From Paenibacillus tianmuensis (GTDB lineage Bacteria > Bacillota > Bacilli > Paenibacillales > NBRC-103111): a DNA stretch of 64,000 bases. The stretch spans positions 64,737-128,736 of the forward strand of contig NZ_FMTT01000006.1 of the NCBI RefSeq assembly GCF_900100345.1. Reading direction: 5' to 3'. This document shows, one piece after another, positions 8,359-12,125 of the stretch (position 1 is its first letter; each line of letters opens with the position of its first letter). The notes under the pieces were generated by a model. It was not told where the DNA came from. It ran no database searches and was given only the letters and a program-made list of their open reading frames with translations. A program made the position numbers and the translations under genes.

Positions 8359-9479
8359 ATGAAAAATTGTATCACCATCCCATCCGTTCTTCAATCCATT
8401 CTGAGTGCTGAAGAAGTCAAATCAATTGTGCAAATGATAGGTTATGAAGACAAAGCCCGCAAGTTTACGGTATACGACTTGTTACAATATTGGTGCACGG
8501 CTGCTCATCAACAATGGGAGGGTTACCGGGCAGGGGCTGACTGTGCTCATTCCTACGGCTTAATTCAGGTTCACTATTCTAGCTTTTCGAGCAAGCAGCA
8601 GAGGTACCTTTCGCTGTTTTCAAAGAGCTTTTTCATCTGCTTGTCCAAAAATGTAGTCGTAAGACGCGTCGAAAATTGGCTTTCCCTAAAGAATTGCTTC
8701 TTATTGATTCCACAACAATGACCGTTGGCAAAACCCGTCTGCCTTGGGCACCTTATCATGGGGAACGAGCAGGCGTAAAATTACATGTGGCCTTGCAGGC
8801 AGAAAATCTTCAGCCACTGAAGGCAATCGAGAGCATTGGCTCTAAGCATGACGGACCGATGAGCGAGAGCTTGGCTCATACGGACTACATTATGGTCATG
8901 GACAGAGCTTACGGAAAACTCGAACGTTTGGATGGCTATAAAGAAAACGGACAGTCATTCGTCGTTCGGTTAAGAGATAATGTTCACCTTGAAAAACCGC
9001 GTGCTTTGCGTCGCCAAATCGAGGAAGATTCGCCAATTATCCGTGATATCACGTGTCAACTTGGAACAGCCCAATGTCGATCTAAACATCGCCATCGTGT
9101 TGTGATCTTTCGGGACTTTGAAGGTCGAGAAATCCGAGTCGCCACAGACCTAATGCAGGTCACTGCCGAGCAAATCGCGCAGATGTACAAAGCTCGCTGG
9201 CAGATAGAGGTATTCTTCCGTTGGATTAAGCAGCATTTAAACATTCCTACGTTGTTTGGGACAACAGAGAACGCCGTTTATGGTCAGTTATTTGCAGCAT
9301 TGATGGTGTACGTTCTGCTGAAATGGCTGTTTGACTCCGTTTCTGCATCCATATCTCGGCATGTGGAACTCTCCTTTGTCCGATTTACACGTTTATTCGC
9401 TCTTCATCTGCTGCCTGCTGAATGGCTTATAAAGATTCAATATATTGTGCAGACACATAACCCCCAGAGGGTTGTTTAG
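8359..9479 (+). pseudogene. IS4-family transposase with a frameshift
   Basis: Frame one runs from the ATG at 8359 and stays in register until about 8600 (FSSK). The continuation AAEVPFAVFKELFHLL is in the -1 frame and runs to a stop at 9479. Restoring one G at AAGCAGCAG near 8600 gives a protein of about 373 residues. The DDE triad is present: LLIDSTTM, VMDRAYGK, and the IS4 box YKARWQIEVFFRWIKQ (Y-x2-R-x3-E-x6-K). The copy is either inactive or relies on frameshifting, which is not usual in this family. An ATG at 8676 could start a C-terminal fragment holding the triad. Confidence 0.88.
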
Positions 9480-9490
9480 ATTACATAATT

Positions 9491-9509
9491 TGGTTAATCA
9501 ACAGGCCTG
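9491..9509. repeat. right terminal inverted repeat of the IS4 element
   Basis: It mirrors 8263-8281 exactly over 19 bases and is followed by the second copy of the TTATCGTGT target duplication. Confidence 0.93.
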
Positions 9510-9537
9510 TTATCGTGTAAATGAAAGTTGCAATCAT
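9510..9537 (-). pseudogene. 5' part of small membrane protein gene split by the IS4 element
   Basis: An ATG at 9537 with AAGGAG 8 bases upstream opens MIATFIYTI, then meets the inserted element. The strong ribosome binding site argues that the intact 47-codon frame (with 8138-8262) was a translated gene. From 9538 to 9761, apart from this site, I see no gene; a GGAGG on the plus strand near 9629 has no suitable start codon after it. Confidence 0.6.
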
Positions 9538-9761
9538 CCGATCAGCTCCTTTTTCTATCGACCTTATCTTTCAAAATGCCTATGAATGTGATTATAGCGG
9601 AAATTCAAGTTATTGGAAACAAAAAAGGAGGGTTCCCATCACATCCGTTACATACCGCCTGCCGCAACAGCCCACCCTCGACAGCTTCGTTCCGCCGCCG
9701 TGACCGAGCGGAAATACAGCACGACACTGACCGTGGGGACCTGCCACAAGCCGAGCACGGA

Positions 9762-10358
9762 TCAACTCGGCTTTGTCTCCTCCTTCGCCCTTCGCTTCAT
9801 CTCGTGCAGACCCGCGAGAAAGGTGTCGAGCAGCAGCCGGAAGCTGACGTCGAGATCGAGCGGCAGCCCGAATCCTCCGCGCTGCTCAAGCGATGAGAAA
9901 CCGTGCAGGAGGCTGCGCAATCCGCGTACGGCATGCAGCGCCGCATCGTCCTTCAGCTCGTACGCCTGCAATGCGCGGACCACGAGATCAACCGTTTCGC
10001 CGGCCAAGCGCCGCACTTCCTCGTCCTGCGGGTCGGGAGCGCGGAGCGTCGCATCGTACAAGCCCGGATGCGCGCGGGCAAATGCCACGTAGGCTTTGCC
10101 CAATTCGCGTACCGCATCGTCTCCCGAGCGGTCGACAACGGCTTGCGTCATGACGTGCAGAAGCTGCTCCAGACCGTGAACGGCCAGCTTGCTTCGCAGC
10201 CCGCTTAATCCGTTCACATGGTTATAAAGGGAAGGAGACCGAACGGCCAGCTTCTGTGCGAGCGAAGCCAGCGTGACTTCCTCCAAACCGCGGGTATCGG
10301 CGATTTCAACCGCGGCTTGCAGGATCGTAGGCAGATCGAGACCGATTCTTGGCGACAT
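9762..10358 (-). CDS. TetR-family transcriptional regulator
   Basis: 198 residues. The N-terminal 50 residues form a TetR helix-turn-helix (ILQAAVEIADTRGLEEVTLA then LAVRSPSLYNHV). The C-terminal ligand domain (VRELGKAYVAFARAHPGLYD) matches the TetR_C subclass with a WHG-like motif. AGGAGTG precedes the ATG. Its start lies 3 bases after the stop of the metallo-hydrolase gene, so both are one operon. The tandem palindromes over the operon promoter are the natural operator, implying autorepression relieved by an unknown ligand, possibly the hydrolase substrate. Confidence 0.9.
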   Translation of the reverse strand: MSPRIGLDLPTILQAAVEIADTRGLEEVTLASLAQKLAVRSPSLYNHVNGLSGLRSKLAVHGLEQLLHVMTQAVVDRSGDDAVRELGKAYVAFARAHPGLYDATLRAPDPQDEEVRRLAGETVDLVVRALQAYELKDDAALHAVRGLRSLLHGFSSLEQRGGFGLPLDLDVSFRLLLDTFLAGLHEMKRRAKEETKPS

Positions 10359-10361
10359 CGT

Positions 10362-11096
10362 TTACACACTCCTTTTCGCAACGACGGGCAGTCTGCGCTC
10401 GGCATCAGCAATGGCGCGGTCGATCGCTTCTCCGGGACGGCCGAGCATGCTCCCGTGCCCTACGGCCAGCAACGAAGGCTGATGCGCCCGAAGCTTGCGG
10501 GCGCTCTCCAGCGCAAGCTCCTTGCTCCAGGTTGCCATCGCCGGGTATGGAAACCAGGGCCGGACTTGACCCGATACAGCGATGCCGCCTCTCGTCTGGA
10601 ACGCGTCGCCTGCGATCAGTGCCCGGTTACGGGTGTCCAGAAAGGCCATCGAGCCAGGCGTATGTCCCGGGGCCGCCAAAGCCAACAGCGAACCGATCCG
10701 GTCGCCGTCCTGAGGCAGCACGTCGGCACACGTCCGCACGTTCTTCGGCACGCCGCCACGGACCGGAGTATCCGGTTCGTCCGGGTCCAACGTGACGTCA
10801 CCCGCCAGCAGCCGCGCATCCCGGGCGGAAATATGCACCGGAACGCCGGGCAGCGCTTGCTTCAGCTTATCAAGCGCGCCGATATGATCGTCGTGCGCGT
10901 GGGTCAAGACAATCCGCGTAATCGGCTTCCCGATGGTTTGTGCCGCTTGAAGAATTCCCTTGGCACTATACGGCAGAGCAGCATCGATCAAGGTCAAGCC
11001 GTCGTCCTCTTCGACAAAGTAACAATTTACCGGGAAAATCCGCGGCATAAACGTCAGTTGATAGACAGTCAGTTCTTGTTTAATTTGCATCGTCAT
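10362..11096 (-). CDS. metallo-beta-lactamase-fold hydrolase
   Basis: 244 residues. The zinc motif THAHDDHIG is at residues 65-73 (H66, H68, D70, H71). Later ligands are plausible in APGHTPGS, LIAGDAF and VGHGS. There is no signal peptide, so it is cytoplasmic. AAGGGG lies 5 bases before the ATG. It is the first gene of the operon with the TetR regulator. The family covers lactonases, thioesterases and glyoxalase II-like enzymes; the exact substrate cannot be read from the sequence. Confidence 0.9.
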   Translation of the reverse strand: MTMQIKQELTVYQLTFMPRIFPVNCYFVEEDDGLTLIDAALPYSAKGILQAAQTIGKPITRIVLTHAHDDHIGALDKLKQALPGVPVHISARDARLLAGDVTLDPDEPDTPVRGGVPKNVRTCADVLPQDGDRIGSLLALAAPGHTPGSMAFLDTRNRALIAGDAFQTRGGIAVSGQVRPWFPYPAMATWSKELALESARKLRAHQPSLLAVGHGSMLGRPGEAIDRAIADAERRLPVVAKRSV

Positions 11097-11104
11097 ATCG
11101 CCCC

Positions 11105-11162
11105 TTAGTTAATTAACTAATACTATTAGTTTTATATTAACTAATGGTATTAGTTTTTGCAA
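11105..11162 (-). promoter_or_regulatory. promoter with tandem TetR-type operators for the hydrolase-tetR operon
   Basis: On the minus strand, TTGCAA (11157-11162) and TAATAT (11134-11139) are spaced by 17 bases. Two matching palindromes ACTAAT-N3-ATTAGT lie at 11140-11154, exactly filling the spacer, and at 11116-11130, over the expected start site; their centres are 24 bases apart. A third palindrome TTAGTTAATTAACTAA lies at 11105-11120. Binding there would block transcription, as expected for the operon's own TetR protein. Confidence 0.75.
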
Positions 11163-11187: not shown

Positions 11188-11222
11188 ACAAAAAACAGTT
11201 ACCTTGGAAGATAACTGTTTCC
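11188..11222 (-). terminator. terminator after the methyltransferase remnant
   Basis: AAACAGTTA pairs with TAACTGTTT, with an A-rich flank that gives a U tract on the minus strand (CTGTTTTTTG). From here to 11335 I see no gene. Confidence 0.65.
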
Positions 11223-11645: not shown

Positions 11646-12125
11646 CTAATCGGTCAATGGATCGACTTGAACAGCCGCTTGCTTCCCGCTAAGCTGGATA
11701 CCCGTCTTCTTGCGACCGCTCGCGGCCAAATCGTTCAGTAGCGATTCGAGCAGCGCTCTCGCTTGGACCCCTTCCTTGCCTTGAATCCGCACGACAAATT
11801 GGACAGCGTCCCCGGATTTCAAAATCCGCTCCGCCTGCTGCTTCTTCGTCTCGTAATCGTGCTCCTCGATCTGCGGCGTCAGACGAATTTCCTTCAGCTT
11901 CGGCGCCCGATCGCGCTTGCGGGCTTGCTGCGCCTCCTGTTTCGCCGCGCTGGCGTGGACAAACTTGCACGGCGGCGGACTGCTCATGAGCGACGTGCAC
12001 ACCAAGTCGACCTTGAGCTTCCGGGCCATTTTCAGCGCCTCGACCGTAGGGACGATGCCGAAATCTTCGCCGTCGACCCCGGTTAAATGAACTTCGGACG
12101 CTTTTATTTTTTCGTTAAGAATCAT
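11646..12125 (-). CDS. divergent translation initiation factor IF-3 paralogue
   Basis: 159 residues, a little shorter than canonical IF-3 (about 170). The N-domain start MILNEKIKASEVHLTGVDGE, the proline motif (SPPPCKFV for the usual KPPVCRIMDYGK), and LKEIRLTPQIEEHDYETK at the start of the C-domain identify the family. The linker is short and the C-terminal part (RIQGKEGVQARALLESLLND) keeps the general plan but not the usual motifs. No rpmI or rplT follows, so this is not the housekeeping infC locus. AGGTGGG precedes the ATG. Its role could be conditional translation initiation. Confidence 0.8.
   Translation of the reverse strand: MILNEKIKASEVHLTGVDGEDFGIVPTVEALKMARKLKVDLVCTSLMSSPPPCKFVHASAAKQEAQQARKRDRAPKLKEIRLTPQIEEHDYETKKQQAERILKSGDAVQFVVRIQGKEGVQARALLESLLNDLAASGRKKTGIQLSGKQAAVQVDPLTD

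Follow-up and report, generated by a model that had tools for sequence, protein, structure and literature searches.

Tandem ACTAAT-N3-ATTAGT sites in the promoter of a metallo-hydrolase-tetR operon: a conserved candidate operator pair of a TetR-family regulator

Introduction

The Tet repressor of Tn10 has two operators, tetO1 and tetO2, and the locus described here resembles this system in its two operators, its dimeric TetR-fold repressor, its predicted autoregulation and a HTH region that can be aligned with that of the Tn10 protein. It differs in that the sites are found in a hydrolase operon rather than before an efflux pump, in the palindrome itself (ACTAAT-N3-ATTAGT) and in the C-terminal domain of the regulator, which is of the TetR_C_33 type. 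The nearest solved relative of this regulator is 1ZK8, which we take to originate from Bacillus cereus: since both proteins exhibit an identical helix (VRSPSLYNHV), the 1ZK8 protein is predicted to bind the same operator. In terms of regulatory logic, a working precedent is provided by the qsd operon of Rhodococcus erythropolis, a lactone-degrading hydrolase operon controlled by the TetR-like repressor QsdR, whose release is triggered by the substrate's lactone ring (PMC6262395). The likeness, a TetR-like repressor placed over a hydrolase operon, is not that of a shown homologue: the qsd operon codes for an acyl-CoA ligase besides the lactonase QsdA, with neither an MBL nor a YdjM-like partner mentioned in the abstract of that paper (PMC6262395). 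A search of openly accessible papers returned no description of the present operator or its regulon, nor a function or operator for 1ZK8.

Here, we analyse a 64-kb stretch of DNA from Paenibacillus tianmuensis (the window), in which two such palindromes, O1 and O2, precede the genes of a metallo-beta-lactamase-fold (MBL) hydrolase and a TetR-family protein. Our main reading, to which we assign a probability of about 0.88, is that O1 and O2 are the operators of this TetR protein, which would autorepress the mbl-tetR operon and be released by a ligand that the hydrolase likely destroys. Its computed support comprises the sites, the promoter architecture, their conservation, the co-occurrence with tetR, second targets and an enzyme swap. 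The operator pair is real, well conserved and ordinary in kind, with a regulon that is wider than first claimed; an operator and a small regulon are thereby assigned to a TetR subfamily, including 1ZK8, for which neither operator nor ligand was found in the literature searched.

Results and Discussion

The operator pair and its promoter

The original prediction placed ACTAAT-N3-ATTAGT twice in the promoter of the operon, once within the 17-bp spacer and once over the start site with the centres 24 bp apart, and exactly this arrangement was recovered: ACTAATNNNATTAGT is present with 0 mismatches at both O1 and O2 (Table 1). Along the minus strand, TTGCAA is followed by AA, ACTAATACCATTAGT, TAATAT, AAA, ACTAATAGTATTAGT, TAATTAACTAAGGGGCG and then the start of the metallo-hydrolase gene. 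The promoter scored 8/12, under the cut of the promoter scan, and its hexamers together with their spacing recur across relatives. Such a tight operator pair within a promoter represents a ready-made sensor part.

A search of the whole window with two mismatches allowed returned O1 and O2 as the sole matches; as shuffled windows reached two such matches in 27 of 100 cases, the site count in the window is weak evidence when taken alone. Sequences generated from a first-order Markov model of the 71-bp AT-rich stretch contained at least one exact site in 32 of 200,000 cases and two in 0 of 200,000, and throughout the genome (6.03 Mb, 113 contigs) O1 and O2 are the only exact sites. A wider regulon of single sites within this genome was rejected, given that the 7 other places with one mismatch are fewer than the 17 found for a reversed-pattern control.

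A terminator-like stem-loop (11191-11222, minus strand) is located directly upstream of the promoter, with its stem largely kept in close relatives, and probably ends the preceding gene. Also upstream of the operon is a gene (11646-12125, 159 aa) exhibiting both IF-3 domains (PF05198, PF00707).

Table 1. Features of the operon and its promoter in the window.
Feature	Position	Strand	Remarks
O1, operator ACTAAT-N3-ATTAGT	11140..11154	-	Within the 17-bp promoter spacer
O1 extended 17-bp palindrome AACTAAT-N3-ATTAGTT	11139-11155		
O2, second operator	11116..11130	-	Covers the predicted start; extended 17-bp palindrome at 11115-11131
-35 element TTGCAA	11157..11162	-	TTG beside O1 kept in the 24-bp-spacing class
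-10 element TAATAT	11134..11139	-	Between O1 and O2; relatives mostly TATTAT/TATATT
Third palindrome TTAGTTAATTAACTAA	11105..11120	.	5-bp overlap with O2; lineage-specific
MBL hydrolase gene	10362..11096	-	PF00753, E 2.7e-31; likely start ATG 11090
TetR-family regulator gene	9762..10358	-	Proposed repressor of the promoter; PF13305, E 8.4e-29
3' remnant of YdjM-like membrane-protein gene	9652..9752	-	Gene whole in most close relatives

The hydrolase and the regulator

Membership of the hydrolase in the MBL fold is indicated both by its Pfam domain and by the HxHxDH di-metal motif, present as HAHDDH at residue 66 along with H145, the D of GDA and GHG; an HTPG motif is present as well. Naming the enzyme as a known MBL lactonase or beta-lactamase through the NCBIfam equivalogs was rejected, with every match far under its cut-off (score/cut-off for the best listed: B3 53.6/240, AidB 36.4/360, GloB 38.9/200.8). 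Its start codon is probably the ATG at 11090 rather than that at 11096, since the latter is missing from the printed close relatives (ATAACG, ACAACA and similar), all of which have ATGCAAAT in common.

In case of the regulator, the C-terminal ligand domain TetR_C_33 (PF13305) reaches 100.7 bits with a cut-off of 26.8, and TetR_N (PF00440) 22.2 bits with a curated cut-off of 24. The match to 1ZK8 is full-length (residues 1-186, E 8.9e-61), and the HTH region (query residues 7-91) aligns with Tn10-type TetR chains (2NS7 and others, E 1e-6 and weaker). In keeping with the TetR family, a palindromic operator is found at the protein's own promoter and is conserved together with the gene. The core of the recognition helix, P42-S43-L44-Y45-N46-H47, is the same in all 72 operator-bearing loci described below, and PSLYNH is also present in 1ZK8.

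Conservation of the pair in relatives

Conservation in relatives, which the original prediction had proposed as a check, was found both around individual loci and across a family of genomes. A scan of genome contigs provided 80 loci with TetR relatives (45-97% identical; hydrolase gene alongside in 74). These are loci L005-L084; L001-L004 were omitted from the upstream table, and L085-L114, which partly repeat L005-L084, were not counted. Pairs were sought in the 300 bp preceding the first gene, allowing, over the 12 positions of each site, up to 1 mismatch in the first and up to 2 in the second, and by this measure the pair precedes the operon in 72 of the 80 loci, compared to 0 of 8,000 shuffled upstream regions. 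The remaining 484 kb of the same loci contained 4 pairs: three are the operon's own pair placed before a longer operon (L022, L077, L083), and the fourth, in an AT-rich stretch of L018, is probably due to chance. Two TetR relatives of the contig set, L049 and L081 (best 2 mismatches), are without recognisable sites. In the genus tried (g47) for the neighbourhood of 1ZK8 in B. cereus, a TetR relative was present in 2 of 13 genomes.

Among the 72 pair-bearing loci, O1 has no mismatch in 63 and one in 9; the corresponding numbers for O2 are 36 and 31, with two mismatches in a further 5. O1 is the more constrained and O2 the looser site. Should the repeats be no more than a functionless tandem duplication, this would account for both units being near-copies of a single 24-bp stretch within an AT-rich region (34% G+C). 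What leaves this explanation with a negligible probability is the pattern of change: the operator arms are near-invariant whereas relatives differ in the 3-bp centres and in most of the gap, and this holds among TetR proteins that are 45-60% identical as well as across phyla.

Co-occurrence with tetR

The family set comprised 104 genomes, 83 with a TetR gene at E<=1e-20 and 21 with none. The exact tandem pattern was detected in 51 of the 104 (reversed control pattern: 0), all of them TetR-positive, with 0 of the 21 TetR-negative genomes exhibiting it. Manual comparison of coordinates placed the pattern at mbl or tetR in 44 of these 51 genomes, at a YdjM-like gene in 6 and elsewhere in 1. The 39 TetR-positive genomes outside those with an exact pair at mbl or tetR were rechecked with mismatches allowed, and the pair is then found in 73 of the 83 TetR-positive genomes; in 82 of the 83, one or more sites have no more than one mismatch, the exception being G028 with two-mismatch sites only. 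Among the single-site loci retrieved from the class sample, 7 of 30 had neither gene nearby.

Loci in which the two genes are separated are of particular relevance to the ownership of the sites: four genomes (G002, G096, G097, G101) have no hydrolase gene beside tetR and the pair directly precedes tetR itself, and in G029, where the hydrolase is unlinked from tetR, a perfect site is still present. No sites precede the three paralogous MBL genes that lack an adjacent tetR (one from G014, two from G036), a finding that, for these three cases only, is consistent with the sites being operators of TetR. The pair could in principle belong to another regulator, for example of the MarR type, with TetR merely residing in the operon, and one exact tandem pair (L127 1501-1539, genome G050, 24 bp apart) does lie away from tetR, flanked by a MarR-family gene and a small ORF. 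We consider such an owner very improbable, given the lack of the exact pair in family genomes without TetR, its persistence with tetR when mbl is absent and its presence at tetR-hydrolase operons of another phylum.

Operator spacing and the third palindrome

The centre-to-centre spacing within the 72 loci is 24 bp in 33, 25 bp in 24, 21 bp in 13, 23 bp in 1 and 33 bp in 1. The 24, 25 and 21 bp classes differ by clade, and at 10.5 bp per turn the relative helical face of the sites shifts by 100-140 degrees between them. What these three main classes share is the -10 hexamer within the gap and, in most loci, O1 within a spacer of 17-18 bp that follows a TTG-type hexamer. The constraint thus acts on operator placement within the promoter and not on the mutual facing of two dimers.

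The original prediction was one of cooperative autorepression by TetR, and its two parts fared differently. Autorepression at the paired operators is, on comparative grounds, strongly supported by the conservation of the pair, its co-occurrence with tetR and its presence at tetR genes lacking mbl, as well as by the unlinked targets and the second phylum described below. Cooperativity is not supported because the centre spacing varies between clades: this argues against the claim and rules out a conserved cooperative geometry, with some degree of cooperativity still compatible. In its strict form, the two TetR dimers on adjacent sites would touch each other, with the array extended by the third palindrome, in line with two close sites in most relatives and a single spacing common to many close relatives. 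We regard this as unlikely in view of the change of helical face between spacing classes and the narrow distribution of the third palindrome. That palindrome does exist as predicted (TTAGTTAATTAACTAA); its occurrence is limited to the P. elgii/P. tyrfis group, where most copies are imperfect, and for this reason it was ruled out as a conserved third operator and is probably no operator in its own right. The preferred reading, autorepression through O1 and O2, does not depend on such contacts.

A second target

A gene for a YdjM-like membrane protein (PF04307, E 1.3e-5, under the curated cut-off) is present in 30 genomes, in 13 of which it trails tetR and in 17 of which it is unlinked; in G081 and G083 it is split into two frames. 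Seven of the 17 unlinked genes are preceded by a tandem pair of their own (G033, G040, G042, G045, G047, G049, G052), and all seven genomes have the pair at mbl-tetR too. The other 10 are without a pair, G004 and G095 among them also being without a TetR gene. In three genomes (G035, G030, G004; loci L208, L215, L223) the palindrome in the promoter of the YdjM-like gene is of another type, based on TAACCA/TGGTTA, which looks like a takeover by a different repressor.

Between tetR and the YdjM-like gene, close relatives of the window have a conserved ORF of ~30 aa (MSFIVFVLLFTxGCGWLDAK...), whose product is probably a small single-span membrane protein. It was found near 3614 in L005, L006 and L008-L012, and before YdjM-like genes in L210, L214, L218, L220 and L221. 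In L022 (Cohnella) all members are united in a single operon, in the order pair, small ORF, ydjM, mbl and tetR. In three Bacillaceae loci (L030, L055, L058), a different membrane-like ORF of ~115 aa overlaps or trails tetR at the place otherwise taken by the YdjM-like gene.

Chloroflexota and the exchange of the hydrolase

In an Anaerolineae MAG (L083) and in L077, a pair 21 bp apart lies behind TTGACA and before an alpha/beta-hydrolase gene (PF00561) that is followed by tetR. A search of 298 genomes from the Chloroflexota class to which G502 belongs recovered TetR relatives (E<=1e-25) in 18: upstream of tetR there is an alpha/beta-hydrolase in 8, an MBL relative in 8 and neither in 2. Sites with at most one mismatch occur at 14 of the 18 and a pair 21 bp apart at 11, the pairs standing before either mbl-tetR or alpha/beta-hydrolase-tetR operons; 4 of the 18 have no recognisable sites. 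An unrooted TetR tree, with Bacillota rows thinned to 21 and L270 omitted as the same locus as L077, does not unite the alpha/beta-hydrolase operons in a single group; its well-supported branches force at least 2 label changes, and support for the split between Bacillota and Chloroflexota is weak (76/42).

We tentatively suggest, at rather less than even odds, that the tandem ACTAAT-N3-ATTAGT code in the promoter marks a widespread, undescribed regulon of Bacillota and Chloroflexota that responds to a hydrolysable (ester- or lactone-like) compound: TetR would be kept, the hydrolase slot filled by either an MBL or an alpha/beta-hydrolase, and the small ORF and YdjM-like gene would be members in Paenibacillaceae.

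Proposed mechanism and ligand

We infer that TetR binds these sites, that it represses rather than activates, and that induction follows from an ester- or lactone-like ligand. Without ligand, TetR dimers would occupy O1, between the -35 and -10 elements, and O2, over the start, and would exclude RNA polymerase, leaving the mbl-tetR operon silent; in relatives, this operon would also include the ~30-aa membrane ORF and the YdjM-like membrane protein. A small ligand would free TetR from its operators and so induce the hydrolase, which most likely would destroy this ligand or a closely related compound and thereby reset the loop. Two operators would raise occupancy, making a fixed contact between dimers unnecessary. 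Some TetR-family proteins act as activators, and TetR could likewise activate, or both activate and repress, at this promoter; this we hold to be scarcely probable, as the positions of O1 and O2 are those expected to block polymerase.

In case of autorepression as proposed, the nature of the inducer is narrowed by the exchange of enzymes. The sharing of one slot under one sensor by two unrelated hydrolases is the strongest hint at a ligand that either fold could hydrolyse, for example an ester or lactone; the swap supports an inducer of this type without proving it. For the original suggestion that the ligand is the substrate of the co-transcribed hydrolase, circumstantial support comes from the loci where, behind the same operators, the place of the MBL is taken by an alpha/beta-hydrolase unrelated to it. 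The ligand search is thus narrowed to what both folds may cut (esters, lactones), and identification of the inducer thereby becomes a practical screen.

The end of the operon in the window

In the window, the later members of the operon are gone through deletion of the small ORF together with the 5' part of the YdjM-like gene, and the remnant follows the tetR stop codon. Compared to the P. elgii/P. tyrfis relatives, the remnant and the region downstream of it (9506-9760) are collapsed by deletions. Beside this deleted operon end lies a DDE transposase gene (PF01609, 8359-9479); the element is probably broken, with an ORF at 8359-8721 having the appearance of its front part in another frame.
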